A stretch of DNA of 64,000 bases. It comes from Jiangella aurantiaca. GTDB lineage: Bacteria > Actinomycetota > Actinomycetes > Jiangellales > Jiangellaceae. Of this stretch, positions 1,396 through 17,632 are shown one piece after another. Position 1 is the stretch's first letter. Each line of letters starts with the position of its first letter. The stretch covers positions 124,001-188,000 of the forward strand of contig NZ_SMLB01000001.1 in NCBI RefSeq assembly GCF_004349105.1, read 5' to 3'. The translations under genes were made by a program, and so were the position numbers. Below the pieces are notes generated by a model that did no database searches, was not told the origin of the DNA, and saw only the letters and a program-made list of their open reading frames with translations.

Positions 1396-2814
1396 ATGTC
1401 GCCCACGGCCCGGACACCGGTCGCCGTACCCCGTCAGGAGTGGAACACCGTCCAGGTGCCCGAGCTCGGGGCCTGGGCGCCGACCCTGACGGTGACGGTG
1501 GTGCTCCCGGCGAAGGACTGCCAGGACGAGCTGGACCTCACGCTGGCCGCCCTGGCGGCGCAGACCTACCCGGCCGAGCTGCTCGACGTCATCGTCGTCG
1601 ACGACGCGTCCGCGGAGCCGCTGCGGCTGCAGGCCGTCCACCCGGAGCGGACCCGTGTGCTGCGGCAGCCGCCCGGCGACGGTCATGGCTCCGGACGGGC
1701 GCGGCACGCCGGCGCCGAGGCGGCCACCGGCGACATCGTGCTGTTCCTCGACGCCGACATGGTCGCCACCCGCACGCACGTCGAGGCGCACGCCCGCTGG
1801 CACCACACCCTTGCCGACGCCGTCGTGCTCGGGCACAAGCTGTTCGTCGACTTCGACGACATCACCGCCGCCGACGTCCTCGCGGCAACCCGCGACGACA
1901 CCTTCGACCAGCTGCTCGACGGCCGGAAGCTGAAGAAGCACACCTGGCACGAGGACTTCATCCGCGAGGCCGGCCGGCTCACCACGTATGCCGACGACAC
2001 CTTCATCGCCGTGGTCGGCGCGAGCGTGTCCGTACCGCGGGCGCTGTACGCCGAGAGCGGCGGGTTCTCGACGTTCGGGCTGCGCGGCATCGTCGACACC
2101 GAGTTCGGCTACCGCATCTTCACCGCCGGCGCCGTCATCGTCCCGGAGCCGGCCGCCCGCAGCTACCACCAGGGCGCCCGCAACTTCGCCGTCCGCGGCG
2201 ACGAGATCAAGCGCGAGCGGTCCGGGCTGGCCGCCAACCACCTGCCGATCCCGCTGTTCCGCCCCTCCGACGTCGGCCGCATGTGGCAGGTGCCGATGGT
2301 GCACGCCGTCGTCGACGCCACCAGCGGGACGCCCGAGGAGGTCCAGGTCACCGTCGACAGCATCCTGGCCTCGGCCTACACCGACCTCGTCGTCACGGTG
2401 TCGCCGAGCAAGGAGCTGCCGCGCTGGATCGAGGACTACTTCGCCGCCGACGCCCGGGTGCGGTTCGCGCCCGAACCCGTCCGCACCGGTTTCCCGGCGC
2501 CGTTCTCGCTGGTCGTGCCGGCCGGCGTGGCCATCGGCCGGTCGGCGGTCGGGACGCTGCTGGCGCTGTCGGCGTCGGAGCAGGTGGGGCTGGTCCGGGC
2601 GACGGTATCCGACCAGCCCGGCCCGCCGGTCGAGCTGTGGGCCACCCGGGCGCTGCACCGCGCGCGCCGTCACGCCGGCGCCGACGGGCTTGACGAGACC
2701 GCGCGGCGGCTGTTCGGGGTGCACTGGGTCAGCGGCACGGAGATCGGCGTCCGGCCGGCGGTCGTCGGCGTCACCAAGCAGGGCATGCTGATCGAGGCGT
2801 CGGCCGCGGACTGA
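1396..2814 (+). CDS. Family 2 glycosyltransferase
   Basis: This 472-aa protein begins at ATG 1396, preceded by a strong GGAGGAA ribosome site. The N-terminal GT-A domain (about residues 30-290) shows TVTVVLPAKDCQDELDLTL, then VIVVDDAS, and the metal/nucleotide-sugar motif in VLFLDADM (DAD). A later FSTFGLRGIVDTEFGYR segment fits the acceptor/catalytic acid region (ED-like) of GT2 enzymes. The C-terminal ~150 residues look like a second, degenerate GT-A-like half without DxD. No membrane segments are evident, so it probably works at the cytoplasmic face on lipid-linked or nucleotide sugars. It is divergent from the gene at 149-1318. Confidence 0.8.
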   Translation: MSPTARTPVAVPRQEWNTVQVPELGAWAPTLTVTVVLPAKDCQDELDLTLAALAAQTYPAELLDVIVVDDASAEPLRLQAVHPERTRVLRQPPGDGHGSGRARHAGAEAATGDIVLFLDADMVATRTHVEAHARWHHTLADAVVLGHKLFVDFDDITAADVLAATRDDTFDQLLDGRKLKKHTWHEDFIREAGRLTTYADDTFIAVVGASVSVPRALYAESGGFSTFGLRGIVDTEFGYRIFTAGAVIVPEPAARSYHQGARNFAVRGDEIKRERSGLAANHLPIPLFRPSDVGRMWQVPMVHAVVDATSGTPEEVQVTVDSILASAYTDLVVTVSPSKELPRWIEDYFAADARVRFAPEPVRTGFPAPFSLVVPAGVAIGRSAVGTLLALSASEQVGLVRATVSDQPGPPVELWATRALHRARRHAGADGLDETARRLFGVHWVSGTEIGVRPAVVGVTKQGMLIEASAAD

Positions 2815-2851: not shown

Positions 2852-3901
2852 TCAGGCGCGGGTCGCGGTGAAGAACCGGGTGCGGCCGACCACCTCGTCG
2901 TCGGCGAGGCGGACGCCGTCGACGCTCTCGGCCAGCCAGTCGGCGGCGATGTCGGCCTCGTCCTGCCGCTGCGCGTCGTCGAGCGCGACGATGGCGCCGT
3001 CGTCGAGGGCGGCCGCGAGCAGCGGGAACGCCGGATACCGCGACCGCGGCCCGACGGCGCCGGGCGGCCCGTCGACGAACAGCAGGTCGATGCCGCGCAG
3101 GTCGGTCCACTGCGGCGCCGCGTACCAGTCGTGCTTCTCGCCGCCGACGGTGACCGGCTCGAGCGGCGCGAGCCGCACCTCGGCAACGTCGCCGAGGCCG
3201 TGCCGGGCCAGCGCCTCGCGGGTGCGCCTGGCATAGAGCTCGAGATGCTCCAGCGCGACGACGCGGCCCTTCCCGGCGCGCCGGCAGGCCAGCGCCAGCC
3301 AGACCGTCGAGCTGCCGCTCCCGCACTCGACGATCAGCGCGTCGGACGGCAGCCGCCGCACCAGCGAGGCCAGCCGGAGCACCGTCCGCGGCGACGCCGC
3401 GTAGCCGCCGAACGCCGGGACCTCGTCGTCGGCGCCGAGCATCGCGTACAGGTTGGCCAGCGCCGACAGCTCGGCCAGCTGCTGCTCGGTCAGGGTGGCG
3501 TGCACGTCGGCGCGGAGCTCGTCGTGCCGCGCGATGAGCTCGTCGTGCCGCACGGCGGCGTCGAGCCGTTGCGCCCCGATGATCGCGGCGAGCGGTCCGC
3601 CGCTGGGGTCGTTCTGCCGCTCCTCGACCGCCTGTACGGCCGTCGCGATGGCCTGGACCGACTCGGTGAGCGACTTGAGCTGCTTCTCGGTCTTGCGGGC
3701 GCGCTGCTCCGCCTCGCGCGCACTCGCCCCGACGACGACCAGCCCGACGAGCGTCAGCCCCAGCAGCAGGGCGAGCGCCGCCTGGGCGAGGCCACCGCCG
3801 GTGGCGACGATGACGACCGCCACCACGACGGCGGCGAAGGCGCCGAGCATGCCCAGCAGGGGCCAGCGGGAGCCGAGTAGCGCGCGTACCGCCCGTTGCA
3901 T
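2852..3901 (-). CDS. Membrane-anchored class I SAM-dependent methyltransferase
   Basis: This protein has 349 residues. Residues ~12-60 form two hydrophobic segments, followed by a charged heptad-like helix (~60-135, ARKTEKQLKSL onward). The methyltransferase domain (~150-349) has motif I as VECGSGSSTVWLALA and a post-motif acidic residue in VVALEHLE. An acidic strand LLFVDGPPG fits motif IV of the methyltransferase-24 type found in polysaccharide loci. The predicted layout is a membrane anchor, a coiled-coil spacer and a cytosolic catalytic head. It is likely co-directional with the GT4 gene ending at 3955. The acceptor, a sugar hydroxyl or a polymer end, is inferred from context only. Confidence 0.7.
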   Translation of the reverse strand: MQRAVRALLGSRWPLLGMLGAFAAVVVAVVIVATGGGLAQAALALLLGLTLVGLVVVGASAREAEQRARKTEKQLKSLTESVQAIATAVQAVEERQNDPSGGPLAAIIGAQRLDAAVRHDELIARHDELRADVHATLTEQQLAELSALANLYAMLGADDEVPAFGGYAASPRTVLRLASLVRRLPSDALIVECGSGSSTVWLALACRRAGKGRVVALEHLELYARRTREALARHGLGDVAEVRLAPLEPVTVGGEKHDWYAAPQWTDLRGIDLLFVDGPPGAVGPRSRYPAFPLLAAALDDGAIVALDDAQRQDEADIAADWLAESVDGVRLADDEVVGRTRFFTATRA

Positions 3902-3954: not shown

Positions 3955-5040
3955 TCAGTGCGCGGTCGCGTGTGCCAGCTTCTCCAGCGAGTGGACGAAC
4001 AGGTCGGCGTCGGCGTCCCAGCTGTAGTGGGCGATGACGGCCGCCCGCCCGGCGTCGGCCATGCGCCGCCGCTCCGCGGGATCGGCCTTCAGCGCGCGCA
4101 CCGCCACCTCCGCCGCGTCGATGTCGCCGAACGGGACGATGGTGCCGCAGCGGTGCCGCATTATCAGCTCGGCCGACGCCGGGTTCGGCGTGCTGATGAC
4201 CGGCAGGCCGTGCGCCATGTACTCGACGATCTTGGTGGGCCGCGAGTGCGCGTAGTTCGGCTGCTCGTGCAGCAGGCTGAGTCCCGCGAGCGCGCCCGGC
4301 AGCATCGTCAGCGCCTCGTCGTTGGGGACGAAGCCGTGCCAGGTGACGACGCCCTCGGCCTGGGCGGCCTCGATGGCGGCCGCGCAGTCGGCGTCGGCCG
4401 GGCCGACCAGGTGCACCTGGATCTCCGGCGCCAGCCGGCGGGCCAGCTCGACGAGGTCGTGGCCGCCGCGGGGCGCCGTCAGCCGGCCGAGGTAGATGAC
4501 GCGGTCGTCGACCGGTGCGCTGACTTCCTCGGGGATGGCGACGCTGTTGCGGACGACGGTGTGCTGCTTGCGGAAGCGGTCGGCGTAGGACTCCTCGGCC
4601 AGCAGCAGCGGCATCCGGCGCTCCGCGTGGCGCTCGATCGCGCGGATCAGCGCCGCGCCCGCCGGGCGGCCCATCTTCGGCAGCCAGGCCTTCATCCGCA
4701 GCGCCGCGGCGGTGTCCTCGTGCACGTCCCAGACCAGGCCTGGGATGCGCAGGCCGATGCTGGCCAGCACCAGCTCGGGGTCGTGCATGAGGACGATGTC
4801 GTAGTCGCGGCCGTGCCGTTTCAGCAGCCGGCGGGCCGTGCGGACGGCGTTCAGCCGGTGCCGTCCGTGCGAGCGCGGGATGTCGATGACGGCCAGATCG
4901 GCCGGGATGGAGCGGCCGGTGTCGGTGAACGGCGCCGCCAGCGTGACGTCGTGCCCGGCCTCCCGCAGGGCGACGATCTGCCGGTGCCTGATGCGTGCGT
5001 CTTCCGGGTCGTGCACCACGGTGAGGACGAGGACGCGCAT
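3955..5040 (-). CDS. Family 4 glycosyltransferase
   Basis: The product is 361 aa from ATG 5040, the start that gives the canonical first strand MRVLVLTVVHDPEDARI; longer in-frame extensions look non-coding. The N-terminal Rossmann domain includes DIVLMHDPELV and VWDVHEDT. The C-terminal GT-B domain has RVIYLGRLTAPRGGHDLVEL, then VHLVGP, and the donor-binding signature KIVEYMAHGLPVISTP with a conserved Glu pattern. This is a typical retaining GT4 that transfers a hexose from a nucleotide sugar. It is probably cytoplasmic and takes part in assembling a surface polymer together with the methyltransferase immediately downstream. Confidence 0.85.
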   Translation of the reverse strand: MRVLVLTVVHDPEDARIRHRQIVALREAGHDVTLAAPFTDTGRSIPADLAVIDIPRSHGRHRLNAVRTARRLLKRHGRDYDIVLMHDPELVLASIGLRIPGLVWDVHEDTAAALRMKAWLPKMGRPAGAALIRAIERHAERRMPLLLAEESYADRFRKQHTVVRNSVAIPEEVSAPVDDRVIYLGRLTAPRGGHDLVELARRLAPEIQVHLVGPADADCAAAIEAAQAEGVVTWHGFVPNDEALTMLPGALAGLSLLHEQPNYAHSRPTKIVEYMAHGLPVISTPNPASAELIMRHRCGTIVPFGDIDAAEVAVRALKADPAERRRMADAGRAAVIAHYSWDADADLFVHSLEKLAHATAH

Positions 5041-5518
5041 GGCGCTAGCCAGTCCGCCCGCTGACCGTGAGCCGTACTCGCACGTCTGAATCCCCGGCTT
5101 CCCCATCGACAGTGCCACACTCGGATGACGCCCAGGCCCACCTGCCCGGTTGCACGATGAGCGTCCCCAGTTTCCTGCGCCCCCACATGCCCGTCAGCCG
5201 GCCGCACGGAAGGCGGCGCATCCTCGATGGATCCTACAGCAGCGTAGGTCCACGCCCCTGGGGTTGATTGTGTTGTGATGATTCATCTCTGGGCGGCTGG
5301 GGGGAGAGCACGCCGTGCACGTGCGTGCGGTCCTGGTCAGCATGATCCTGACGGCCTTGACCGTGCACGGGGCTCTGGCTGGATGCCTGGCCACGCAACC
5401 CGGTCCGCCACGGATGCCTCTTGCATCGGCATGGATCCTGGTCTAGCGCAGTCGCGATAGAGTCCCGGATGGATCAGTCGGTGTCGAGCACCGGCGTTGT
5501 GTCCCGAGCAGGAGAGTG
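5041..5518. other. Intergenic region between the GT4 gene and the aquaporin gene
   Basis: This 478-bp spacer separates two divergently oriented genes, so it must carry at least two promoters, but none matches a consensus well enough to mark. Its base composition is less GC-rich than the flanking glycosyltransferase genes. The only coding signal seen is the short lipobox-containing frame at 5315-5446, listed separately. Confidence 0.5.
5315..5446 (+). CDS. Possible 43-residue lipoprotein
   Basis: A GTG at 5315 follows GGGGAGA at a 7-nt spacing. The 43-codon frame starts VHVRAVLVSMILTALTV, a positively charged then hydrophobic stretch, and continues HGALAGC, a good lipobox with Cys24. After cleavage only ~20 residues would remain, so the product would be a tiny lipopeptide, or this is a truncated remnant of a longer lipoprotein gene. 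It lies just upstream of the aquaporin-like gene in the same direction. The ribosome site and lipobox are visible; expression and function are unknown. Confidence 0.35.
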   Translation: MHVRAVLVSMILTALTVHGALAGCLATQPGPPRMPLASAWILV

Positions 5519-6256: not shown

Positions 6257-6367
6257 CGTCGAGGCCGGCGTCGGTGAACGGGCGTGGGCACGAGCGCCTG
6301 TCTAGAATGACCTGACCTGCCGGTAGTCCAGTACGGGCGGGCTGCCGCTCTCTACCAGGTGAGGTCG

Positions 6368-8512
6368 ATGCACAGGTCAACCGGAATGTACCCGGGACCG
6401 GTGCCGCCGCCTCCACCGCCGCCGGCGCGCGCTTCGACGAACGGCCGTCTCGAGAGCCAGGCAGCCGGTGGCCGCGAGCCCGCCTTCCGCGGGGACATCC
6501 AGGGACTGCGAGCTGTCGCGGTTCTGCTGGTGGTCGCCTATCACGCGGGGGTGCCGTTCCTCCCTGGCGGCTTCGTCGGGGTCGACGTCTTCTTCGTCAT
6601 CTCCGGCTTCCTCATCACCGGCGTCATCGACCGGGAGATCGGCCGCACGGGCACGATCAACCTGGCGCGCTTCTGGGCCCGACGAGTCCGGCGCATCCTC
6701 CCCGCGGCAGCGGTCGTCCTCGCCGCGGTCGCGGTGATGACGTTGCTCGTGCTCCCCGTGACGCGCTGGCCGTCGATCGCCTGGGATCTCGTGACCAGTT
6801 CGCTCTACGTCGTGAACTGGCGGTTCGCCGATCAGTCGACGAACTACATGGCGTACGAGGACGCCGCCAGCCCGCTCCAGCACTACTGGTCTCTGGCGGT
6901 CGAGGAGCAGTTCTACCTGATCTGGCCGTTGATGATGCTCGCAGTGCTGTGGCTACAGCGGCGCTATCGGCTCCCGCTCACGAAGGCGATGCTTTTCGGC
7001 GTGGCTGCCATCGGTGTGCCGTCGCTGGTCTGGTCGGTGTACGCCACCTGGACGGGCCCGGCCGCGGCATACTTCGTGTCGACCACACGTCTGTGGGAGC
7101 TGGCTGTCGGGGCTGCGCTCGCGGTCGTCGCCCATCGACTGGTTCGGCTGCCTGCCGCGGTGGCTCACTCGATCGGCGTCGCTGGTATGGCCGCGATCGT
7201 GGTCGCGGCGTGCACGTTCGACGAGACCACCCGCTTCCCAGGCATCGCCGCACTTCTTCCGACGGCCGGCGCCGCCGCCGTCCTGGCAGCTGGTGTCAGC
7301 CGGCGCCGTACGATCGCAGGGGCGGTCCTGGACACCCCGGTCCTGCGCGACATCGGAGCGATGTCGTACTCGCTCTACCTCTGGCATTGGCCGTTACTGG
7401 TCGGCGCCACGGCGCAGTGGGGAGGAGCCGACGGGGAGCTGTCGGTTGCGATGGGCCTGCTGGTCGTGGGCTTCTCCGCGGTCCCTGCTTGGCTCACCTA
7501 TCGGACCGTCGAGGCGCCACTGCACCGGTCGGTCCAGCTGGTGCGCTTCCCCCGCCGTGCCGCAGCGGTCGGTGCGGTGTGTACGGCCATCGGCCTCAGC
7601 GCGGCGATGATGGTCTCTATCGCCGCGCCGGTGTCGAACGCGCGAGCCGGCGGCCAAGACATCCTGGGTGCGGTCGCGCTCGACAGAGACCCGGCCGAGT
7701 ACGACCTTCCCGACGCGGTGGACGTGATCGTGCCCGACGTGCTCGACGCACCCGCCGACGTCGCGACCCTGGACGGCGAGCGTCGCTGCATCAGCGGTGT
7801 CGAGGGGACCGAGCTCGAGTCCTGCACCTACGGGCCTGACGAGGGCGACGTGACGGTCGCCATCGTCGGCGACTCAAAGATGCACCAATGGCTGCCAGCC
7901 TTGCGCCGTATCGCCGATGAACGCGGCTGGAGGATCATCACCTATCTCAAGAACGCCTGCCCGCTCGTGCGGGTCCCGATCGAGTACGACGGCGAGCCGA
8001 ACCGCGACTGCGCCGAGTACAACAGAGACCGCTATGAGGCGATCGTGGACGACGAGTCCATCGACTACGTGATCACCTCGCAGGCACAGTCGCACGCACT
8101 CCTGGATCGCGACGACACGACGGATCAGGAACTGACCGCGATGGCCGACGATCTCCGCAGGACCTGGAGCGAGCTCGAGGACGCCGGCCATGACGTCATC
8201 GTGATGATCGACAATCCCAGTCCGCCCTTCGACGTGGTCGAATGCGTCGCAGAGAACCGTGACCAGCTCGGCGAGTGCGCCTTCGACAAGGAAGCCGCAA
8301 TGGGCCAGGGCGGCCGGCCGGCACAGACCGCGGCACTGGACCGGATCGACGGAGTCGGCTCGGTCGACCTCGCCAACTACGTCTGTCCGGGTGACCAGTG
8401 TCCGCCGGTCATCGGCAACGTGCTCGTGTACCGGCGCGGCTCGCACATCAGCGCGACGTATGCCGACTCGCTGACCACCGCGATCGACGAGGGCGTGGCC
8501 GACGCTCTGTGA
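6368..8512 (+). CDS. O-acyltransferase (acyltransferase-3 family) fused to an SGNH domain
   Basis: The ~714-aa protein resembles OafA/OatA. After a proline-rich cytoplasmic leader, the acyltransferase-3 domain (~40-400) begins FRGDIQGLRAVAVLLVVAYH, with its catalytic-type His, followed by GGFVGVDVFFVISGFLITG and about ten membrane helices. The extracytoplasmic SGNH-like domain (~480-714) has block I as VAIVGDSKMHQWL, with the nucleophile-type Ser, and a final block VYRRGSHISATYADSL. In that block the usual D-x-x-H has Arg in place of Asp, so the triad is incomplete. It should acylate surface glycan on the outer face. The start could also be GTG 6359. The gene converges on the FkbM-GT gene, with 3 bp between the stops. 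Confidence 0.85.
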   Translation: MHRSTGMYPGPVPPPPPPPARASTNGRLESQAAGGREPAFRGDIQGLRAVAVLLVVAYHAGVPFLPGGFVGVDVFFVISGFLITGVIDREIGRTGTINLARFWARRVRRILPAAAVVLAAVAVMTLLVLPVTRWPSIAWDLVTSSLYVVNWRFADQSTNYMAYEDAASPLQHYWSLAVEEQFYLIWPLMMLAVLWLQRRYRLPLTKAMLFGVAAIGVPSLVWSVYATWTGPAAAYFVSTTRLWELAVGAALAVVAHRLVRLPAAVAHSIGVAGMAAIVVAACTFDETTRFPGIAALLPTAGAAAVLAAGVSRRRTIAGAVLDTPVLRDIGAMSYSLYLWHWPLLVGATAQWGGADGELSVAMGLLVVGFSAVPAWLTYRTVEAPLHRSVQLVRFPRRAAAVGAVCTAIGLSAAMMVSIAAPVSNARAGGQDILGAVALDRDPAEYDLPDAVDVIVPDVLDAPADVATLDGERRCISGVEGTELESCTYGPDEGDVTVAIVGDSKMHQWLPALRRIADERGWRIITYLKNACPLVRVPIEYDGEPNRDCAEYNRDRYEAIVDDESIDYVITSQAQSHALLDRDDTTDQELTAMADDLRRTWSELEDAGHDVIVMIDNPSPPFDVVECVAENRDQLGECAFDKEAAMGQGGRPAQTAALDRIDGVGSVDLANYVCPGDQCPPVIGNVLVYRRGSHISATYADSLTTAIDEGVADAL

Positions 8513-8515
8513 TCG

Positions 8516-11500
8516 TCACCGCTGGCGCAGCGACGAGTGCTTCGCGAGAGCCAGGAGCCGCACGTACATCTGAGTCGCCATGAGGCGGTGGCCATGGCTC
8601 TGCGCACCGAGTTGGCCGGCCCTGCTCTGGGCCCGCCAGAGCGTCGGGTCGCGGTAGAGGGCGGGGAGGACGGAACGGAGGTCCTCGGCGCGCTCGATCT
8701 GAATGGCGCTGAGGCCCAGGTAGGAAGAGAGCGATTGCTCCATTCGCTGATAGATGACCGGCACACCGAGCGCGGCGACCTCTATCGGAACCATCTCGAA
8801 CGTGACGTAGCGCAGCGGGTTGATCATCAGCCGCATCTTCGAGAGCCTCTCGGAGAAGTCGTCCCTGAGGTAGGGCAGGACGGTGATGCCGAGATCGCGT
8901 TCTTGCGCGGGTCGATACTGCTTCACCGCGAACAGCGGCGCCTCTGGAACCGTCTCGCGGATGATCTCGATCCACCGCTCCGCGGTGCCATCCGAGAACA
9001 GGTCGTCGTTGACGAGCTTGGCGATGTCGCCGAGGAAGATCCCCTCGGTTCCATGGAAGGTGGCATGCGGCGGATGCGGGACGTCGATCGTCTTCGGGAT
9101 CGCGACGATCGAGTCGGCGATCTCGGAAAGAGCAGGGATTTCCTTGATCTGGTCGGCGAAGACGAGCATCTTGATGCGGTCGCCGTACTGCTGGCGCCAT
9201 GCAGTCATCCGCTCGACCACAAACTTGGCGCGGCTGTCGGACATCGTCATCGAGAGGTTGATCAGGACCGCGGCTCCGCGGGAGGCATGCCTCTCGGCGA
9301 TCTGTTCGCACTGGTGGAAATCGGGTCGTCCGGGGTCGCCGGGATAGATCATGACGACCTGTGGCTGGAACCCGTCCAGATTCCACGCGTCGCCCGTTTC
9401 CAGGTCGAACAGGCGGACGTCGACGCCGAGCGGCCGGAGCATGTCGGCGGTGAGGTTGGTGGACTTCAGAATGCCGCCCTTCTTCCACCGAGTGGGATCA
9501 GTTCGGCCCACGATGGCCAGCGAGAGCGGCTCGCGCACGACGATCTCCTCCTGCCGGGCCAGCTTCCACGGCGCGCGCTCGCGGACGAGCCGGTTGGTCT
9601 GGGCGCGGACGTCGAAGGCGCCGTGGCCGCTCTTGGCCATCGACTCGGTCGAGATCGAGCGGTCGTCCTCCAACTCCAGGGGCCTGGCCCATCCCTTCTG
9701 ATGTGCCAGAACGACAAACGGAACCGACTGTTCTTGACCCTTCAGTGCGAAGAAGACGTCGGCCATGTTCGGCTTCGGGAAGTCGAAGAAGGACAGCGAC
9801 AGCGCGTCCGTGTGAAAAGCGGCGCAGCCGGTGCCCAGGATGTGCACGGGGACGTCTTCCGGGCGGTTGAACCGGAAGGAGAAGACCCGCCGGGATGCCT
9901 CGTTGTAGTAGTCCTCGAAGCCGTCCTTGACGATCGATCCGTGCCAGCCCACGGCGGCGCGGCGACCGTAGCGCTCGATGCCGTCGATGAGGTGGTCGAC
10001 ATAGAAGCCCGGATAGTCGATATCGTCGTCGACGGAGATGAAGTAGCCGTGGAACCCGTCGACGAACCTGAACTTGCCGCGGTCGCCGAGGTCGTCACCG
10101 GTGAAGACCCGGATCCGCGAGTCGCCACGCAAGAACGCAGGCGCCTCGTCGAACCGGTTGAGGTACACATACAGCTCGTCCACTTGGTCGTACAGCTTCT
10201 CGACGACGTGCTTGAGGCCCTCGACCCGCTCCGGGATCGAGGCCAGACCGGCGCGCACGATGTCGCGGCCCGTCGGCAGCGCTGGATGCAATTCCCGCAG
10301 ATTGCCGTAGCCGATGGCGGATGGGGGCGCCAGCACTGCCGGCGCCGTCGCTCGAGCCTTGGCCGGCGTCAGGGGACGCATGCCCTCGACTCCCGCCTCG
10401 CGCTTGGCATGCCGCCGCACCCAGGCTCTTCTCGACTCGATGTCGATGAGGTCGCGCCGCCTCCCGACCAGCATGCGCAGCAGACGTCCGGTCCGGACCG
10501 CTCGCGATCCGGCCAGACTCTTGTACGACTGCTGCCACAACCGGGATTCGGACTCCAGCCAACGGACACGATCGCGCAGGGGCGCTACCTGCTCCTCCAG
10601 CGCCGTCCGGGCGTCGACCGCCGCCGTCATCGCCTCCGTCTGCCAGGCCAGCCGGTCCATCAGCAACCGGATCTCGTTCCTGGTGGCCCGGGTGGCGGAG
10701 TCCGTCTTCGCCACATGGCGTTCGAGCGCGGAGCTCAGTCTCCCGATCAGGTCGTCGGCGGTCCCATGCAAGGACTCGTCGACACCGTTGACGAGGCGAA
10801 AGACGGCGGCCTCCAGCCCGGTCCGCATGTCTTCGGTTGCCTGGTGCATCGCCACTGGGACGTTCTCGAACGTTGCGTCGGACCGGTCGATGCGGCGACT
10901 CAGATGGTCCAGCCTCAGGTTCAAATGCTTGCCGAGCTGCCGGCTGCCGGTCACCACCACCATCTGACGCAGTGAGTCGATGGTCTCGGCGCCGAGGCTG
11001 GTCGCATGCACCCAGATGTAGTTGTCGCTGCGGCCCTCGATGTCGAGAAGCTCGTAGCCCAAGGGCGCCAGAACCTTCACGACGCGTTGGAATGCCGTCC
11101 CGTCGTGCGCCTCGACGCAGATGTGGGGGTGATCGCGCTCGAGGATGGACCGGCCGCCACCGAGGACATCCGCCTCGGATCCCTCAGTGTCGATCTTGAG
11201 GAGCCCCACCCGCTCGCCACGCTCCGGGATCTCATCGAGAGTGAGCGCCGAGAGTTCGCCGTCAGGGTCTGTGTCAACGGCGAAGGTGCCGGAGTTGCCG
11301 GCGATCCGTTGCGTCAGCCGCAGGCGCTGGTGCTCGCTCCACAGTGGGCGACGAACGACGCGCGTGCGCTCGCGTAGGTTGTTGAAGCCGAGGTTCGCCT
11401 CGAGGAGGTCTGCGTTACCGCTGTGCGGCTCCACAGCGACGACTGCGCGATCGAAGAACTCCGCGAAGAAGATCGTGTGGTTGCCGATGTTGGCGCCGAC

Positions 11501-11689
11501 ATCGACGATCAGGTGATCGGCGGGAATGGGAAGGTAGGAGAGCAGGTCGAGGACATCCGCCTCGTAGAAACCGCCAGTGGCTCGGATGCGCTCGAAGACG
11601 TAGTCACCTTCCGTCCCCATGATTGTCAACGTGCGGCCTCGCCCAGCGATCTGGGTGTCCGCTTTGCGTGATTGCGCCGTCTCCGGCAT
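8516..11689 (-). CDS. Three-domain surface-glycan enzyme: FkbM methyltransferase, coiled coil, GT-A and GT-B (paralog 1)
   Basis: This 1057-aa protein has three enzymatic modules. Residues ~35-215 are an FkbM methyltransferase (LIVDVGANIGNHTIFFAEFF, VEPHSGNADLLEANLG, LLKIDTEGSEADVL). Residues ~240-400 form a long charged coiled coil, then a linker. Residues ~470-700 form a GT-A-like domain (AGLASIPERVEGLKHVVEKL, DELYVYLNRFDE, and the metal motif in FISVDDDIDYP). Residues ~730-1040 form a GT-B-like half ending in EMVPIEVAALGVPVIYQRME, the nucleotide-sugar donor signature. It probably methylates and extends a polymer in one polypeptide. It is a tandem paralog of the gene at 11906-15136. Confidence 0.8.
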   Translation of the reverse strand: MPETAQSRKADTQIAGRGRTLTIMGTEGDYVFERIRATGGFYEADVLDLLSYLPIPADHLIVDVGANIGNHTIFFAEFFDRAVVAVEPHSGNADLLEANLGFNNLRERTRVVRRPLWSEHQRLRLTQRIAGNSGTFAVDTDPDGELSALTLDEIPERGERVGLLKIDTEGSEADVLGGGRSILERDHPHICVEAHDGTAFQRVVKVLAPLGYELLDIEGRSDNYIWVHATSLGAETIDSLRQMVVVTGSRQLGKHLNLRLDHLSRRIDRSDATFENVPVAMHQATEDMRTGLEAAVFRLVNGVDESLHGTADDLIGRLSSALERHVAKTDSATRATRNEIRLLMDRLAWQTEAMTAAVDARTALEEQVAPLRDRVRWLESESRLWQQSYKSLAGSRAVRTGRLLRMLVGRRRDLIDIESRRAWVRRHAKREAGVEGMRPLTPAKARATAPAVLAPPSAIGYGNLRELHPALPTGRDIVRAGLASIPERVEGLKHVVEKLYDQVDELYVYLNRFDEAPAFLRGDSRIRVFTGDDLGDRGKFRFVDGFHGYFISVDDDIDYPGFYVDHLIDGIERYGRRAAVGWHGSIVKDGFEDYYNEASRRVFSFRFNRPEDVPVHILGTGCAAFHTDALSLSFFDFPKPNMADVFFALKGQEQSVPFVVLAHQKGWARPLELEDDRSISTESMAKSGHGAFDVRAQTNRLVRERAPWKLARQEEIVVREPLSLAIVGRTDPTRWKKGGILKSTNLTADMLRPLGVDVRLFDLETGDAWNLDGFQPQVVMIYPGDPGRPDFHQCEQIAERHASRGAAVLINLSMTMSDSRAKFVVERMTAWRQQYGDRIKMLVFADQIKEIPALSEIADSIVAIPKTIDVPHPPHATFHGTEGIFLGDIAKLVNDDLFSDGTAERWIEIIRETVPEAPLFAVKQYRPAQERDLGITVLPYLRDDFSERLSKMRLMINPLRYVTFEMVPIEVAALGVPVIYQRMEQSLSSYLGLSAIQIERAEDLRSVLPALYRDPTLWRAQSRAGQLGAQSHGHRLMATQMYVRLLALAKHSSLRQR

Positions 11690-11845
11690 GAAATCCCCAC
11701 TTCTTCACCCACCAAAATACGGCAATGGATCCGCGTGAGAGCGGATGCATCGCCGCACGGACAATAGCGGACCTCATCCGTGTGTGCGCAAACCAATGAC
11801 CAAGAGTCGATCAGCTGGTCGCTGGCCGGGTGTCCGGGAACACGC

Positions 11846-11877
11846 ACGCCCGGCCGACGGTGACGTCGGCCGGGCGT
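11846..11877. terminator. Hairpin between the two FkbM-GT paralogs
   Basis: A perfect 14-bp stem (11846-11859 with 11864-11877; ACGCCCGGCCGACG on the left) closes a GTGA loop. It lies 29 nt beyond the stop of the upstream minus-strand paralog and upstream of the next start, the position expected for a terminator separating the two large genes. It has no U-run, as is common in high-GC actinobacteria. Confidence 0.65.
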
Positions 11878-11905
11878 ATGTGGTGATCGGGTTCTTGGTC
11901 GCAGG

Positions 11906-14900
11906 TCAGGAGGGCCGCGCGGGGATGGTGGCATGCCGCGCGAGAGCGGCGAGGCGGAGGTACATCTGGGATGCCATGAGCCGATAATCGAGGCTCTGGG
12001 CGCGGAGCTGGCCAGCGCGGCTCTGCGGGCGCCACAGCGTGGGGTCGCGGTAGAGCGCGGGCAAGACGTCCGCCAGGTCGTCAGGCGAGTCCACCTGGAC
12101 GGCGCTCATGCCGAGATAGGCTGAGAGCGAGTGCTCCATCCGCTGATAGATCACTGGGACGCCCATGGCGGCGACCTCCACGGGTACCATCTCGAAGGTC
12201 AGGTGCCGGATCGGGTTGACCATCAGGCGCATCCTCGACAGCTTCTCGGAGAAGTCGCCGGTGAGGAACGGCAGCACATTGACGCCGAGGTCGCGGTTGT
12301 CGTTTGGACGGTACTGGCGCACGGCGTACAACGGCGCTTCAGGCACCGCACTGCGGATCGCCTCGATCCAGCGCTCCACGGGCGCGCTTCCCAGCAACTC
12401 ATCGTTGACCAGCTTGGCGATGTCGCCGAGGAAGATGCCCTCGGTCTCGTGGAAGGCGGCATAGGGTGGATGAGGGACGTCGATCGTCTTGGGGACAGCC
12501 AGCATCAGGTCCCTGATCTCCGCGAATGCAGGGAAGTCCTGTACCTGCTCGGCGAAGACGAGCGCCTTGATCCGCTGCCCGTACTTCTGCCGCCACTCGG
12601 TCATGCGCTCGACGATGAACTTCTCGCGCCAATCCAAGCCGATCACGGACAGATTGATCAGCACCGCGGATCCGAGATCGGCGTGGTGCTCGGCAATCTT
12701 CTCGCACTGGTGAAAGTCGGGTCGCGCAGGATCGCCCGGGTAGATCATGACCACCTGCGGCCGGAATCCGCCGAGGTCCCACGGGTCGCCGGTCTCCAGG
12801 TCGAACAGGCGGACATCTACGCCCAACGGCCGGAGCATGTCGGCGGTCAGGTTGGTGGACTTGAGGATGCCACCCTTCTTCCAGCGGGCTCGATCAGTGC
12901 GGCCGACCACTGCCACCGAGAGTGGTTCTCGCACGGTCGCGGGTTGCACCGTGTTCAGCTTCCACGGGATGGACTTCGTTACCAGGCGGTTGGTCTCTGC
13001 GCGCACATCGAAGGCGCCGTGGCCGGTCTTGGCCATCGACTCCGTGGAGATGGATCGGTTGTCGGTCAGGTCCAACGGCGGGGCCCACCCCTTCTGGTGG
13101 GCCAGCACGACGAGTGGCACGGACTGCTCTTGCGCCTTCAACGCGAAGTAGACGTCTGCCATGTTGGGCTGCGGGAAGTCGCGGTATGACAGCGCGAGCG
13201 TATCGGTGTGGAACGCAGCGCATCCTGTGCCGAGGATGTGTACCGGCACATCCTTGGGCCGTCCGAACCGATACGAGAACACGCGGCGCGACTCGTCCGA
13301 GTAGTAGTCCTGGAAGCCGTCCTTGATGATCGATCCGTGCCAGCCGACTGCCGCGCGGCGGCCGTACCGCTCGATGCCGTCGATCAGGTGGTCGACGTAG
13401 AAGGTGGGGTAGTCGATGTCGTCGTCGGCCGCGATGAAGTAGCCCTCGAAGTCGTCGATGAAGCGGAACTTGCCGCGGTCGCCGAGATCGTCGCCGGTGA
13501 AGATACGGATGCGTGAATCTCCCCGCAGGAACTCGGGCGCCTCCTCGAAGCGGTTGAGGTAGACGAACAGCTCATCCACTTGCGAGTACAGCTTGCCGAC
13601 GACGTGCTTGAGTCCCTCGACGCGTTCGGGTATCGACGCGATGCCGACGCGGATGAGGTCCCGATTCGCGGGGACGGCCGGCCGCAGCTCATGCAGACCG
13701 CTGCGCTCCAGCTGGACTGCTGGGCGCACCATGAGGCGAGGTGGCGTGGACGGCGCCGGTGGAGCGGCCGGTGGGGTGCTGGCCTTGATCTGTGGCGGAT
13801 TGATCTTCGGCGCCTTGCCGGCCGGACCCGCTTGTCGTTTGGTCTGCCGCCGGACCCATTCCGCGCGGGCCTCGGGTGCCACCAGGTCGCGCCTTCGGCC
13901 CATCAGACGACGCAATGCGGCACCGAAACGGACGCCCCGCGATCGCGCTACGACGGCGTAGGAGTCCTGCCATAGTCGCTTCTCGGTCTCCAGCCACCTG
14001 ATCCGGTCCATCGCCTGGTTCAGTGCCGCCTGTAGCTGAGCCCGCTCCTTGCCGAGCGACGTCATCGCATCGCCCTGTGCGGCCAGCTTCGTCAGCAGCT
14101 TCCGAATCTCATGCTGCGTGGCGAGGCCGTTTGTGACCAAGCCGCTCACCTCACGCGACAACCGCTCGGCGACCATGCTGCTGAAGTCGGTAAGGACGTC
14201 GCTTTTGACCTCGTGCAGGACGCCGTTGACGTCGCCGATCAGGCGGTCCGACGTCTGCGCCAGGTCGGCCGTGAGCCTCTCCGACGTCTGGAGGAGCGCC
14301 GCCTGGGCGGCATCGAGCCCTTCGTCGGACCGCTCCAACCTGCGGCTGAGTCCGTCGATACGTCGGTCGACCTGCTGGCGGAGCCGCCTATTGCCGGCCA
14401 TGACGCTGAGCTGGCGAAGCGACGCGACTCCGCCGGCCTCTGACGAGTCGGGATGCGCCCAGATGTAGTTGCTGCTCCGGCCCTCGATATCGAGCAGCTC
14501 GTATCTGAGCGGGCCGAGAATCTCGGCAATGTCGCGGAACGCGGTGCCGTTGTGGGCCTCCACGCACACGAATGGGTGATCCCGCTCGAGGACCTGGCGC
14601 CCTGCCTTGAGGATCAGGCCCTCGGATCCCTCCGTGTCGATTTTGATCAGGCCGACGCGTTCGCCGTCGATCAGCAGCTCGTCGAGCGTGAGGCCTTCTA
14701 GCTCGCCGCTGGCGCTCTCAGCGGCGGCGAACGTGCCCGAGTTGCCGTCGATGTGCTGCAACAAGGTGAGCCGCTCCCGGCCGCTCCAGAGCGGCTGACG
14801 CACAACACGTGCTCGTCCGCGCAGGTTGTTGATTCCGAGGTTGGCCTCGAGCAGGTCGGCGTTATCACCCTGGGGCTCGACCGCCACGACCGGGCGATCA

Positions 14901-15136
14901 AGGAACTCTGCGAAGTAGACGGAGTGGTTGCCAATGTTCGCGCCGACGTCGACCACGACACGGTCCGCCCTGATGGGGAGGTGTGCGAGCGTCTCGAGGA
15001 CGTCGGACTCGTAGAAGGCGCCGGTTGCTCGGATCCGCTCGAACACGTACTCACCGGCGTTGCCGATGATCGTGAGCTCTCGTTCCCGCCCGCGGACGCG
15101 TGTGTCGGCTTTGGTTGCTTGTTGTGCGTCGTGCAC
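11906..15136 (-). CDS. Three-domain surface-glycan enzyme: FkbM methyltransferase, coiled coil, GT-A and GT-B (paralog 2)
   Basis: The product is 1076 aa from GTG 15136, preceded by AAGGGGA. Domain order is the same as in its tandem neighbour: FkbM methyltransferase (~40-220: VVVDVGANIGNHSVYFAEFL, VEPQGDNADLLEANLG, LIKIDTEGSEGLIL), a longer coiled coil (~240-400), a Pro/Ala-rich linker (~430-480), GT-A (~490-720, with AADDDIDYPTFYVDHLIDG) and GT-B (~745-1060, with EMVPVEVAAMGVPVIYQRME). The catalytic blocks are nearly identical to paralog 1; coiled coil and linker diverge. This pattern points to an old local duplication with both copies kept active, perhaps for different acceptors. Confidence 0.8.
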   Translation of the reverse strand: MHDAQQATKADTRVRGRERELTIIGNAGEYVFERIRATGAFYESDVLETLAHLPIRADRVVVDVGANIGNHSVYFAEFLDRPVVAVEPQGDNADLLEANLGINNLRGRARVVRQPLWSGRERLTLLQHIDGNSGTFAAAESASGELEGLTLDELLIDGERVGLIKIDTEGSEGLILKAGRQVLERDHPFVCVEAHNGTAFRDIAEILGPLRYELLDIEGRSSNYIWAHPDSSEAGGVASLRQLSVMAGNRRLRQQVDRRIDGLSRRLERSDEGLDAAQAALLQTSERLTADLAQTSDRLIGDVNGVLHEVKSDVLTDFSSMVAERLSREVSGLVTNGLATQHEIRKLLTKLAAQGDAMTSLGKERAQLQAALNQAMDRIRWLETEKRLWQDSYAVVARSRGVRFGAALRRLMGRRRDLVAPEARAEWVRRQTKRQAGPAGKAPKINPPQIKASTPPAAPPAPSTPPRLMVRPAVQLERSGLHELRPAVPANRDLIRVGIASIPERVEGLKHVVGKLYSQVDELFVYLNRFEEAPEFLRGDSRIRIFTGDDLGDRGKFRFIDDFEGYFIAADDDIDYPTFYVDHLIDGIERYGRRAAVGWHGSIIKDGFQDYYSDESRRVFSYRFGRPKDVPVHILGTGCAAFHTDTLALSYRDFPQPNMADVYFALKAQEQSVPLVVLAHQKGWAPPLDLTDNRSISTESMAKTGHGAFDVRAETNRLVTKSIPWKLNTVQPATVREPLSVAVVGRTDRARWKKGGILKSTNLTADMLRPLGVDVRLFDLETGDPWDLGGFRPQVVMIYPGDPARPDFHQCEKIAEHHADLGSAVLINLSVIGLDWREKFIVERMTEWRQKYGQRIKALVFAEQVQDFPAFAEIRDLMLAVPKTIDVPHPPYAAFHETEGIFLGDIAKLVNDELLGSAPVERWIEAIRSAVPEAPLYAVRQYRPNDNRDLGVNVLPFLTGDFSEKLSRMRLMVNPIRHLTFEMVPVEVAAMGVPVIYQRMEHSLSAYLGMSAVQVDSPDDLADVLPALYRDPTLWRPQSRAGQLRAQSLDYRLMASQMYLRLAALARHATIPARPS

Positions 15137-15712
15137 TTGGTTCCCCTTGGCGGCCTGCGACCCGTTGTGTCATGGAGCGCGTTCGGGCTAGAACGTACAC
15201 TGGCTGTGCGGAAATCGCCGAACCGGCGCTACTGCCGAACTTGTCGCGCTCTGCCGCAATTCAGGGCGCGGAGCCGGTAGGTCCAACCTCTGGCGATAGG
15301 TACACGCATTGTGCGGGTGGCGCGTGACGCGTCGTGGAGCGCCATCTGAGGCAGGCACCGCCCGGCCCTGACGGTGGCGTCCAGGGCCTCCGCCAGGCCT
15401 CTGCACGTGCTCGGCCAGCGATCTGCCGGTGGCGGCAGACCGCTGCGGGTGGGTGCCCGAATACGCCGCGCTGCTCTTGCCTAGCCGGATCCCGTAACGG
15501 CCGATGCGGATCGACCCATGCGAATTCCCGTGGTGTGACCATCGGTTTTGCGCTTCCGTTGTGCCTTGTGGACGAGGGTGCCCCGGCGTCCGATGACTCC
15601 GCTAGAGTCCTGCTTGCTGGGGGCTCGTCGGTCAGCAACGGGCACGGATGACCACGGCACGTCCACGCATGTGCCGGAGACCCTGCCTACTGCCGACGAC
15701 AAGGAGCAAGCG
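15137..15712. other. Intergenic region between the FkbM-GT gene and the 639-aa protein gene
   Basis: This 576-bp spacer lies between divergent genes and should hold promoters for both. A short inverted repeat, TCTGCCG-GTGG-CGGCAGA, lies near 15421-15438. A TAGAGT hexamer at 15603-15608 could be a -10 element for the gene at 15713, but no good -35 is at the right distance. No convincing small gene was found. Confidence 0.45.
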
Positions 15713-17632
15713 ATGAGACCAGACGAGGGCGGCGGCGAGTACACGTCCATCGACGTCGACGCGCTGGGTCAGGCGGTCGACGACCTCGGGGCGACGCTGA
15801 CCGGGCTGACCGACCACATCAGCGGCCTGGAGTCCGACTTCGGCTACTTCGGCGTCGACAAGTCCAACCTCAACAAGCTGCTCGAGGCGAAGAGCGACCT
15901 CGAGAGCATCATGCCCGACATGCGCCGCCGGCACAGCCTGGCCGTGCAGTTGCTGGCCCAGCAGCAGACCAACGGCTGGGCCGGCGACGGCGTCCTGACG
16001 GTGCAGGGCACTGACATCCTCAACGACGACTTCGACTCCGTCGAGGACGCCCAGAACGCCGGCCGCGAGCTCGCCGAACAGGTCAACAACGGCGACGGCG
16101 AGGTCCCGCCGGAGGTCTACGAGCAGCTCGAGCGGTACGGCCATGACCCCGACTTCGCCGAGGCGTTCATCAACAACCTCAGCCCGGAGTCGCGCGGCTT
16201 CCTGCTCATCGACGCGGACAACCAGGCCACCGCGTACGGCGACGAAGCCAACCCCGAGCCGCAGCTGGCGGTGGCCACCGTGTTCGCGACGGCCAGCTTC
16301 CGCATCGATTACAACGCGGAGTTCATCGGCGGCATCAACCAGGCGCTGCTCGACAAGGGCCTGCACCCCGACGGCATCCGCATCGTCGACCGCATCAGCG
16401 CGCTCACCCAGCACGGCAGCTGGGACCACGGCTCGCTCGTGGCGTTCTCCGAGGCCGCGTTGCACGGCGATCAGGACACCATCGGCACGGTGCGGGACTG
16501 GGCGGCGGTCTACAACGGCCTGGCGCGCAACCCTCGGGCCAGCGCGGAGTACATGGCCGAGCACCGCGACGACGTCTGGGAGCAGATGCAGGTCATCGGC
16601 CCGGTGACCAGCGAGGAGGACTTCCAGGCCGCGTTCGCCGCGTTCCTGCACTCAGCGACCATCGACTCCCGCGCCATCTACGCGCGGCTGGGGCTGAACG
16701 ACGAGAACCAGGCCAACCTCGCCGAGCAGAACGCCGCCTTCGTGATCGAGAAGGTCGGCACGCTGGAGGAGCCGTTCCCGTTCTTCGACGCCTACCGGGT
16801 GGTGTTCACCGACATCACCGAGGAGTACTGGGACGACCTCGCCTACAGCATGTCCCAGCCGGCCGGCGTCAGTGACAACCCGGACCGCGACGGCATCGAG
16901 GTCAACGCCGATGCCTGGCAGAAGTTCGTCACCGAGGGCATGCGCAACCCCGAGTGCGCGGCCCGCCTGCACGAGATGATGAGCACCTGGTACCACGACT
17001 ACATCGACTCCGCCGCCGGCTCCCGAAACGGCAACGAGCACTACTGGGACGACATGATGGCGCTGAACATGGCCGGCATGTTCTCCGAGTCGTGGGAGAC
17101 CGTGCTGGGCGAGATCGAGGCCGACGAGGCGGCCCGCGAGGCGTTCATCGGGTCGCTGGTCGACGCCGGGTTCAACCTGATCCCGCCGGACCCGCAGGCC
17201 ATCATCGACATGGGCAAGGAACAGTTCATCGGCGCGCTCAAGAACACCATCACGTCGGCCATCGTCGGCGCGACGCAGGGCGAGGGCCCGCCTGAGCTCG
17301 ACTACAGCTTCCACGGCACCCACCACACGTGGGTCGCCACCGCCGTGGCCGAGTTCAACGCGATCAACGGCGACGGCCGGCCGTTCCCCACGTACAACGA
17401 CGGCGACGTCACGTGGGAGGCCGACCCGCACTTCTACGAGGAGCTGTACGGCGGCGACTTCACCGACGGCGACACGATCATCCCGCCGTACGACGACAAG
17501 GGGAACCAGAACCCGGACTTCCCTTGGGACGACCCGAACGCGCTGCACGCGTTCAACCAGTGGCTGCAGGACCCGGCCATGCAGGTCTACCTGGGTGAGA
17601 ACAAGCCGGGCATCTTCACCACGCCACGCTGA
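15713..17632 (+). CDS. 639-aa protein, possibly type VII secretion-associated
   Basis: ATG 15713 follows an AAGGAG site at 15701-15706; upstream in-frame sequence is not needed. The product is acidic, with no signal peptide and no membrane helix. Residues ~10-95 are helical and WXG100-like in pattern (VDALGQAVDDLGATLTGLTD ... MRRRHSLAVQLLAQQ). The rest is mostly helical, with repeated Trp/Tyr-rich motifs such as EHYWDDMMALNMAGMFSESW and a Pro/Asp-rich C-terminus. The layout resembles large actinobacterial WXG/DUF6571-type proteins, but that match is an impression only. The nearby WxG-like gene (18988) and propeller lipoprotein (17693) support a secretion or cell-surface role. No catalytic motif was recognised. 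Confidence 0.65.
   Translation: MRPDEGGGEYTSIDVDALGQAVDDLGATLTGLTDHISGLESDFGYFGVDKSNLNKLLEAKSDLESIMPDMRRRHSLAVQLLAQQQTNGWAGDGVLTVQGTDILNDDFDSVEDAQNAGRELAEQVNNGDGEVPPEVYEQLERYGHDPDFAEAFINNLSPESRGFLLIDADNQATAYGDEANPEPQLAVATVFATASFRIDYNAEFIGGINQALLDKGLHPDGIRIVDRISALTQHGSWDHGSLVAFSEAALHGDQDTIGTVRDWAAVYNGLARNPRASAEYMAEHRDDVWEQMQVIGPVTSEEDFQAAFAAFLHSATIDSRAIYARLGLNDENQANLAEQNAAFVIEKVGTLEEPFPFFDAYRVVFTDITEEYWDDLAYSMSQPAGVSDNPDRDGIEVNADAWQKFVTEGMRNPECAARLHEMMSTWYHDYIDSAAGSRNGNEHYWDDMMALNMAGMFSESWETVLGEIEADEAAREAFIGSLVDAGFNLIPPDPQAIIDMGKEQFIGALKNTITSAIVGATQGEGPPELDYSFHGTHHTWVATAVAEFNAINGDGRPFPTYNDGDVTWEADPHFYEELYGGDFTDGDTIIPPYDDKGNQNPDFPWDDPNALHAFNQWLQDPAMQVYLGENKPGIFTTPR

Follow-up and report, generated by a model that had tools for sequence, protein, structure and literature searches.

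Among the closest described systems is WsaE of Geobacillus stearothermophilus, an S-layer glycan enzyme in which an N-terminal O-methyltransferase is joined to two glycosyltransferase (GT) domains. In that system the terminal repeat carries a methyl cap, export is by Wzm/Wzt and rml genes lie in the locus (PMC2943079). ORF6 of Klebsiella pneumoniae O7 is arranged as a methyltransferase, a coiled coil and two GT modules, and for Klebsiella O12 WbbB and O3/O9 WbdD/WbdA a coiled-coil ruler is described that carries a terminator at its distal end, together with a two-GT polymerase (PMC11231755).

Here we discuss two adjacent genes, A and B, in a 64,000-nucleotide stretch of the Jiangella aurantiaca genome (contig NZ_SMLB01000001.1, positions 124,001 to 188,000; hereafter the window). 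We give a probability of roughly 0.5 to the reading that A and B are each a one-chain polysaccharide assembly machine, combining a polymerase, a methyl terminator and a coil that acts as a ruler. Support for it comes from the GT-A relationship, the GT-B fold, the coil, the Sinorhizobium meliloti loci and the polysaccharide genes of the host, set out below, and from the resemblance to WsaE, WbbB and O7 ORF6.

The gene pair and its domains

The first-pass annotation had described two adjacent proteins of more than 1000 residues in which an FkbM methyltransferase is followed by a coiled coil, then a GT-A (with a DDDID motif) and a GT-B. We find both open reading frames and this domain order (Table 1). 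The gene caller places the start of A at 11620; we set this start aside and kept 11689, because similarity to B begins upstream of 11620.

Table 1. Features of the A/B region and of nearby genes; positions refer to the window
Feature	Position	Strand	Remarks
Gene A	8516-11689	-	1057 aa; FkbM, coiled coil, linker, GT45-like GT-A, GT4-like GT-B
FkbM domain of A	10997-11611	-	aa 27-231; PF05050 60.1 bits, TIGR01444 81.9 bits
Coiled-coil region of A	10505-10996	-	aa 232-395; weaker heptads, 2 Pro
KfiA/PmHS2-like GT-A of A	9554-10279	-	aa 471-712; DDDID; fold match
GT4-like GT-B of A	8540-9553	-	aa 713-1050; fold match; Thr963 at first Glu of EX7E
Gene B	11906-15136	-	1076 aa; domain order as in A, 65% identity to A
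FkbM domain of B	14444-15058	-	PF05050 50.1 bits, TIGR01444 79.4 bits
Coiled-coil region of B	13940-14443	-	heptad periodicity
KfiA/PmHS2-like GT-A of B	12950-13675	-	phmmer matches to 8viw, 8vh7, 5z8b
GT4-like GT-B of B	11936-12949	-	72.5% identity to GT-B of A; PF13692 26.4 bits
Terminator-like hairpin 3' of B	11845-11878	-	15-bp stem, without T run; z -4.45 vs 200 shuffles
AT3-SGNH acyltransferase	6359-8512	+	convergent; left edge of pair; PF01757 and PF19040
Conserved gene	15671-17632	+	right edge of pair; without Pfam match
GT2	1396-2814	+	nearby glycan gene
Methyltransf_24	2852-3850	-	nearby glycan gene
GT4	3955-5118	-	nearby glycan gene
AMP-binding-domain gene	22877-23608		7.7 kb from pair

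It had also been claimed that the catalytic blocks are nearly identical while the coil differs. The coil does differ (38% identity), but the catalytic domains share only 68–81% (FkbM 67.8%, GT-A 80.6%, GT-B 72.5%), within an overall identity of 65%. For the main domains dS is about 0.9–1.25 and third-position identity 0.29–0.67, which rules out a recent duplication or gene conversion. That the genes were duplicated and kept, as had been suggested, agrees with a dN/dS of 0.13–0.21 across the three catalytic domains. Of the separate terminators proposed for the two genes, we recover a terminator-like hairpin 3' of B and nothing comparable 3' of A (z 0.63); a scan requiring a T run found no match in the A/B region.

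The methyltransferase profile scores exceed the curated cut-offs (22.7 bits for PF05050, 37.7 bits for TIGR01444), making A and B members of the FkbM family, a broad family named after a polyketide O-methyltransferase. The SAM-binding motif is retained in both.

By sequence and predicted fold, the GT-A domain is a relative of the alpha-GlcNAc transferases KfiA and heparosan synthase, which we take to be CAZy family GT45. In phmmer searches the GT-A of B matches the solved heparosan synthase (8viw, 8vh7) at E 1.6e-27 and KfiA (5z8b) at E 1.2e-20, and the predicted GT-A fold of A reaches Z 29.7 to 8viw and 24.9 to 5z8b. The DDDID motif is intact in both proteins. The domain probably transfers GlcNAc.

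The C-terminal part scores 23.9 and 26.4 bits in the two proteins, below the PF13692 cut-off of 27 bits. A profile search of the PDB with the GT-B gave no significant match (the best GT-B entry, 3c4q, had an E of 1.5), and hhalign of the GT-B alignment against the neighbouring GT4 returned a probability of 1.0%. The predicted GT-B fold of A matches PimA (2gej) at Z 17.7 (rmsd 3.5, 286 residues) and further GT-B entries at Z 15–17. It is on this predicted fold that we assign the C-terminal domain to a divergent GT4-like GT-B fold. EX7E is a motif of GT4 retaining glycosyltransferases. Its first Glu is replaced by Thr in all five members aligned, the second being retained, so activity of the GT-B is not assured.

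Structure prediction had been suggested as a check on the first-pass annotation, and in our model of A the middle and C-terminal regions are both GT folds, so the outcome named there as refuting the annotation did not arise. The underlying alignment used 27 of 44 loci (L031 twice) and did not include the S. meliloti protein; only four rows spanned the GT-B. L051 had been dropped beforehand from 45 loci as a duplicate of L050, and 17 short, redundant or weak loci were omitted (L043, L044, L046, L047, L060-L065, L068, L070-L075). A single-sequence AlphaFold model of full-length A was discarded (mean pLDDT 39).

In the coil of B, 127 of 163 residues lie in heptad windows, a value matched by none of 300 shuffles; for A it is 64 of 163, matched by 4 of 300. 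The weaker coil of A counts against the one-chain reading, as does a scan for amphipathic helices: where the coil ends (aa 375-393), a helix of strong amphipathicity ranked among the top six in A, but not in B, P0003, L048 or L031. Domain order, coil periodicity and the model put a candidate terminator domain on one side of the coil and the GTs on the other, as in proteins of the WbbB, O7 ORF6 and WbdD type.

Genomic setting and relatives

The genes at the left and right edges of the pair adjoin directly in two congeners (G008 and G009); the flank comparison took in the four of six congeners with a near-full-length right-edge gene (G008, G009, G010 and G015; not G006 and G013). The pair was not found in the 21 other genomes of the family searched, and every other gene in the window has a higher GC3 than A and B. 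Together, these three observations suggest that the pair was acquired.

The host polysaccharide island holds rmlA/B/C/D-type genes, a UDP-sugar dehydrogenase and a UDP-GlcNAc 2-epimerase. A Wzm/Wzt-like pair lies about 52 kb from A/B on the same contig, which carries one of the 21 ABC2_membrane matches in the genome. Neither PF01943 nor PF13440, which cover two Wzx families, matched on the island contig (C14). This disfavours Wzx/Wzy export, a Wzx of another family being possible.

A scan of genome contigs with A alone returned no relatives. A search with the GT45 and GT-B alignment returned 17 loci; because it takes two motifs of GT45 as its patterns, it can overlook relatives in which these motifs have changed. 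Searching viral contigs with the GT-B only gave a single match, the phage contig already found. Full-length relatives with the architecture of A/B (31% identity) occur on three S. meliloti pSymB plasmids (NZ_CP123006.1, NZ_CP021820.1 and NZ_CP065022.1), at one place each. On both plasmids examined (L028, L030) the fusion directly follows KpsM-, KpsT- and KpsE-type genes. Export in S. meliloti is of the KpsMTE type, for which we know of no methyl-terminated example; this counts against the one-chain reading.

Other strains fill this slot differently. The protein of S. meliloti LMB1 retains FkbM, coil and GT45 and has a GT2 instead of the GT-B, and LMB1 KpsMTE are 85–97% identical to those of the fusion-bearing strains. 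If the repeat is determined by the second GT, with the remainder as a common terminator, such a swap is to be expected; it points to a modular exchange of the GT that determines the repeat. S. meliloti ABS7 has individual genes for GT and FkbM in the place of the fusion; its permease, ATPase and RkpR share 96, 92 and 81% identity with their counterparts next to the fusion. At the ABS7 locus, FkbM and the GTs thus do without being fused, which counts against the one-chain reading. In Lysobacter there is a longer version of the fusion, and about 6 kb upstream lies a Wzt-like ATPase that is truncated by the end of the locus.

A proposed one-chain machine and its alternatives

If A and B are one-chain assembly machines, the KfiA-like alpha-GlcNAc transferase and the GT4-like transferase would alternate, lengthening a polymer of two-sugar repeats on a membrane carrier. 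That the two GTs make one repeat seems to us slightly the better bet; the donor and acceptor sugars and the processivity are what we infer. The N-terminal FkbM domain would O-methylate the growing end, and the chain would stop. We put such a methyl cap, in preference to internal methylation, at a little under even odds. The coiled coil would space the methyltransferase from the polymerase, limiting capping to chains above a minimum length, a ruler role that we propose more tentatively still. A Wzm/Wzt-type ABC exporter would then move the finished chain out; the pair 52 kb away could be that exporter, or it may serve another polymer. A and B, which diverge most in the coil, may make different chain lengths or use different acceptors.

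One could also argue that nothing is polymerised or measured. The two GTs would then attach a short branch, or an oligosaccharide of fixed size, to a polymer, glycolipid or protein that other enzymes produce, and the branch would be methylated by FkbM. About one chance in three seems right to us, and the relatives speak on both sides. In the Rhizobium proteins L038-L040, the stretch that separates FkbM from GT45 is shorter than about 45 residues, so the pairing needs no ruler. By contrast, P0001-P0003 and L048, the four full-length members tested, all have a long coil. On the 51.4 kb phage contig the full-length relative is flanked by tail-fibre and lysis genes, a position that would suit a lone gene for altering the surface, and in Jiangella a backbone could come from the many other GT genes of the island. 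Decoration fits less well with S. meliloti, where the fusion comes straight after the export genes and the content of the slot varies among strains.

It is improbable that A and B each supply half of a single machine, forming a hetero-oligomer through their coils and having one spent domain each. Coils often oligomerise, and the Lysobacter protein has kept a degenerate second GT45 (DAAID). Nevertheless, A and B each retain the GT-A and SAM-binding motifs, dN/dS is low in all three catalytic domains, and relatives occur singly: at one place per S. meliloti plasmid, and as one copy within the 14.9 kb examined of the phage contig. Least probable is a small-molecule or lipid pathway in which A and B glycosylate and methylate a secondary metabolite. 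An AMP-binding-domain gene nearby and the breadth of the FkbM family speak for it; neighbours of the nucleotide-sugar, GT, AT3 and exporter kind and relatives located in capsule loci speak against it.

If the one-chain reading is correct, the few proteins that assemble a glycan in one chain would gain two kinds of part: an FkbM methyltransferase that ends the chain and, as polymerase module, a GlcNAc transferase of the heparosan-synthase type. With its diverged coils, the tandem pair would be well suited to showing whether chain length in an actinobacterium is set by the sequence and length of the coil. The GT-A is clearly kin to enzymes of heparin-backbone synthesis, and a polymerase with a built-in stop might become a tool for heparosan-like polymers of defined length. 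In its widest form the proposal is unlikely, but worth stating: a self-contained actinobacterial synthase with a length ruler for a methyl-capped alpha-GlcNAc (heparosan-like) polymer, present as two tandem copies that make chains of two lengths through their diverged coils, and encoded by a single swappable surface-type gene that crosses phyla, including on a phage able to change its host's coat.

Comparison with known systems

The first-pass annotation had read the pair as an assembly enzyme for a methylated surface glycan not described for this lineage. A multi-domain enzyme that assembles such a glycan is still the best reading, and GT folds are modelled, but the principle has already been characterised in WsaE and O7 ORF6. 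Nor is the fusion peculiar to the Jiangella lineage, because S. meliloti capsule loci also carry it, there as a single copy directly 3' of capsule-export genes rather than as a tandem pair. In the open-access literature, to which our search was confined, we found no description of an FkbM and KfiA-like fusion of the A/B type.

The GT-A of A/B shares the DDDI-YP, G-HG and LGTG motifs with E. coli K5 KfiA and Pasteurella multocida heparosan synthase 2 (5z8b, 8vh7, 8viw). The partner GT of that GT-A is KfiC or a GT2 module, whereas in A/B it is GT4-like, and we know of no FkbM domain or coil in the KfiA or heparosan synthase chains.

The likeness to the methylating systems is one of described architecture. 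Like WsaE, A and B combine an N-terminal methyltransferase with a pair of GTs in a single chain, and the host is Gram-positive too; both GTs of WsaE are rhamnosyltransferases, however, and a third GT, WsaF, is needed (PMC2943079). O7 ORF6 has the same order of methyltransferase, coil and two GT modules as A/B, but its methyltransferase is a methyltransferase-kinase that sets a methylphosphate cap, both its GTs are GT2 and a third GT is separate. As described in PMC11231755, WbbB caps with Kdo rather than with methyl as we propose for A/B, and in the WbdD system, unlike in A/B, the polymerase is a separate protein.

Architecture and predicted folds of the two fusions

Genes A and B lie head to tail on the same strand, 216 bp apart, in a window of high GC content (72.6%). 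The FkbM match is clear in both, and the VDVGANIGNH motif of FkbM and the DDDID motif of GT-A are unbroken in both. When B was compared with the PDB (phmmer, E ≤ 0.001) three distinct sequences matched, every one from GlcNAc-transferring enzymes: two of Pasteurella heparosan synthase 2 (E 1.6e-27, query 495-738) and one of E. coli K5 KfiA (E 1.2e-20).

The first-pass annotation had proposed that the middle and C-terminal regions are glycosyltransferases, and the predicted folds agree. We modelled the C-terminal 593 residues of A with AlphaFold (30-row alignment; mean pLDDT 78, pTM 0.57). Both regions are glycosyltransferase folds in the model: in VIA-align, residues 4-253 superpose on heparosan synthase 2 (Z 29.7, rmsd 2.2, 235 residues) and residues 11-212 on KfiA (Z 24.9), and the stretch 258-563 matches GT-B enzymes, with PimA at Z 17.7 (rmsd 3.5, 286 residues) and many more at about Z 15-16. 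The GT-B half is the poorer one, with many ten-residue blocks at pLDDT 55-85 and only four GT-B rows in its alignment. EX7E is a GT4 motif. Its first Glu is replaced by Thr in all five aligned members and the second is retained; judged by this alignment, the GT-B half deviates from the GT4 motif.

The catalytic blocks had been called almost identical, but per-domain alignment of A and B gives just 67.8% (FkbM), 80.6% (GT-A) and 72.5% (GT-B) identity. The coil and linker do differ more, at 37.8% and 48.6%, below every catalytic domain. dN/dS is 0.19 for FkbM, 0.74 for the coil, 0.13 for GT-A, 0.21 for GT-B and 0.12 for the linker, the last not usable since linker dS is saturated (4.1). These comparisons indicate that the catalytic domains are under selection and, with dS near 1, that the duplication is old.

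Separate terminators had also been suggested. A 15-bp hairpin follows B, and A may therefore have its own promoter, although a scan for promoters detected no sigma-70-type site. Nothing resembling a terminator turned up downstream of A; the stop codons of A and of the convergent acyltransferase gene are 3 bp apart.

Coordinates of the fusion genes, their relatives and other genes discussed
Feature	Location	Strand	Remark
Gene A	window 8516-11689	minus	
Gene B	window 11906-15136	minus	
Right-hand flanking gene	window 15671-17632	plus	
732-aa protein gene	window 19862-22060		
Permease/ATPase pair	C14 (contig carrying the window) 78449-80105		resembles Wzm/Wzt and TagH, under curated NCBIfam cut-offs
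LMB1 FkbM-coil-GT45-GT2 gene	L029 11584-14922		S. meliloti
Full-length FkbM-coil-GT45-GT-B gene	L048 6825-9743		phage contig IMGVR_UViG_2916000859
1913-aa protein gene	L031 6809-12550		Lysobacter
1545-aa protein gene	L042 6974-11611		archaeal MAG

Origin and surroundings of the pair in Jiangella

None of the 21 other family genomes yielded a full-length relative. The family searches (E ≤ 0.001; 22 genomes, two of them less than 90% complete) matched 7 and 12 genomes, outside the window's own genome over the FkbM part only. At the phylum level (E ≤ 1e-30) 3 of 396 genomes matched: the window's own in full, one over GT-A only (G118) and one over FkbM only (G069). The class search (E ≤ 1e-25) returned the window's own genome as sole match among 393.

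Of 12 genus genomes, 7, the window's own among them, carry the right-hand flanking gene conserved at close to its full length. Four congeners were examined, and the pair is absent from this site in all of them: the acyltransferase gene directly adjoins the right-hand gene in G008 (190 bp) and G009 (175 bp), and an aquaporin-like gene precedes the right-hand gene in G010 and G015. Similarity between the window and G009 ends at about 8475 and restarts at about 15596. Among the 39 window genes longer than 600 bp (mean GC3 0.943, sd 0.034), B (0.846) and A (0.853, full length) have the lowest GC3. The acyltransferase gene is next (0.861); hence the stretch as a whole, acyltransferase included, may be foreign. 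The right-hand gene encodes a conserved 653-aa protein without Pfam match, present in three tandem copies in G008.

Upstream on the same contig lies a polysaccharide island. It includes genes of the rmlA, rmlB, rmlC and rmlD types and codes for a UDP-sugar dehydrogenase, a UDP-GlcNAc 2-epimerase, a DegT aminotransferase and several glycosyltransferases. The Wzm/Wzt-like pair is about 52 kb from A and B; flippase families PF01943 and PF13440 have no match on this contig, only on others. Genes adjoining the pair encode GT2, methyltransferase, GT4, aquaporin and AT3-SGNH proteins. The 732-aa protein, whose sole match is a GT28 C-terminal domain (28.7 bits, cut-off 22), is probably another long glycosyltransferase; a gene adjoining it has no Pfam match.

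Relatives in Sinorhizobium, phage and other genomes

The fusion is not peculiar to the Jiangella lineage: full-length copies occur on three S. meliloti pSymB plasmids and a phage contig. Searching 72,556 plasmids with B (tblastn) matched nine records, and the three covering at least 80% of B are these pSymB plasmids. The S. meliloti fusion is 31% identical to B; the copies in L028 and L030, the two plasmids examined, are 99.9% identical to each other and preceded by KpsM-, KpsT- and KpsE-type genes. In strain LMB1 the counterparts of these genes (97, 93 and 85% identical) are followed by an opposite-facing GT2 gene and then an FkbM-coil-GT45-GT2 protein; GT2 in place of GT-B suggests a natural module swap. 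In strain ABS7 identity to the L028 proteins is 96% for the permease, 92% for the ATPase and 81% for RkpR; separate GT2, GT, GT2, methyltransferase and FkbM genes occupy the slot beyond RkpR. Altered K antigen and phage resistance are reported for field isolates in which a stretch of pSymB that includes rkp-3 and carries strain-specific methyl- and glycosyltransferase genes had been replaced (PMC5429615).

The phage copy is 59% identical to the S. meliloti fusion and lies between tail-fibre genes and an endolysin/chitinase gene (14.9 kb of the 51.4-kb contig covered), making it a candidate coat-altering gene. A tblastn search of 50,697 phage records yielded no full-length copy: B hit 1 record and the S. 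meliloti protein hit 17, with query coverage of 21% or less.

The Lysobacter psychrotolerans version has the order FkbM-coil-GT2-GT45-degenerate GT45-GT-B. Its second GT45-like copy, with DAAID replacing DDDID, is apparently kept yet inactive. A UDP-sugar dehydrogenase gene immediately precedes the fusion gene, AT3-SGNH lies downstream, and a Wzt-like ATPase about 6 kb upstream is truncated where the locus ends. In blastp against B, 43 of 44 related ORFs gave a match, which took in FkbM as well in 6 and the entire GT-B in 2; the ORFs were found via GT45 motifs and include near-duplicates, so these counts are not frequencies. On these alignments, FkbM and GT45 co-occur repeatedly and the GT-B of A and B is rarer. 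The Poseidoniales archaeal protein holds a GT45-like domain and two GT2 stretches.

A proposed mechanism and its known counterparts

We infer that the FkbM domain would act as chain terminator and the GT45 and GT4-like domains as polymerase, every step of this function being deduced. The main doubt concerns the methyl group as cap, because Rhizobium FkbM-GT45 proteins lack a long coil and the GT-B motif is unusual. The chief rival, a decorating role for A and B, is a serious if somewhat doubtful possibility. The terminator-polymerase reading offers a clear, testable mechanism.

The fusion is real, and its domain combination is new as far as the open-access literature searched shows. A multi-domain assembly enzyme is the likeliest reading, in that the plan fits WbbB, ORF6 and WsaE, but the principle was already known from them (PMC11231755; PMC2943079). 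According to the accounts cited, K. pneumoniae O12 WbbB is a single protein that serves as polymerase, as ruler and as terminator, and O7 ORF6 comprises a methyltransferase-kinase, coil and two glycosyltransferases (PMC11231755); A and B share this order, with a candidate terminator, a coil and two glycosyltransferases. Geobacillus WsaE is described as having a chain-capping N-terminal methyltransferase and two glycosyltransferases (PMC2943079), and A and B likewise begin with a methyltransferase, FkbM, ahead of two glycosyltransferases. A and B would thus be their own version of the plan, with FkbM as candidate terminator and a GT45/GT4-like polymerase.
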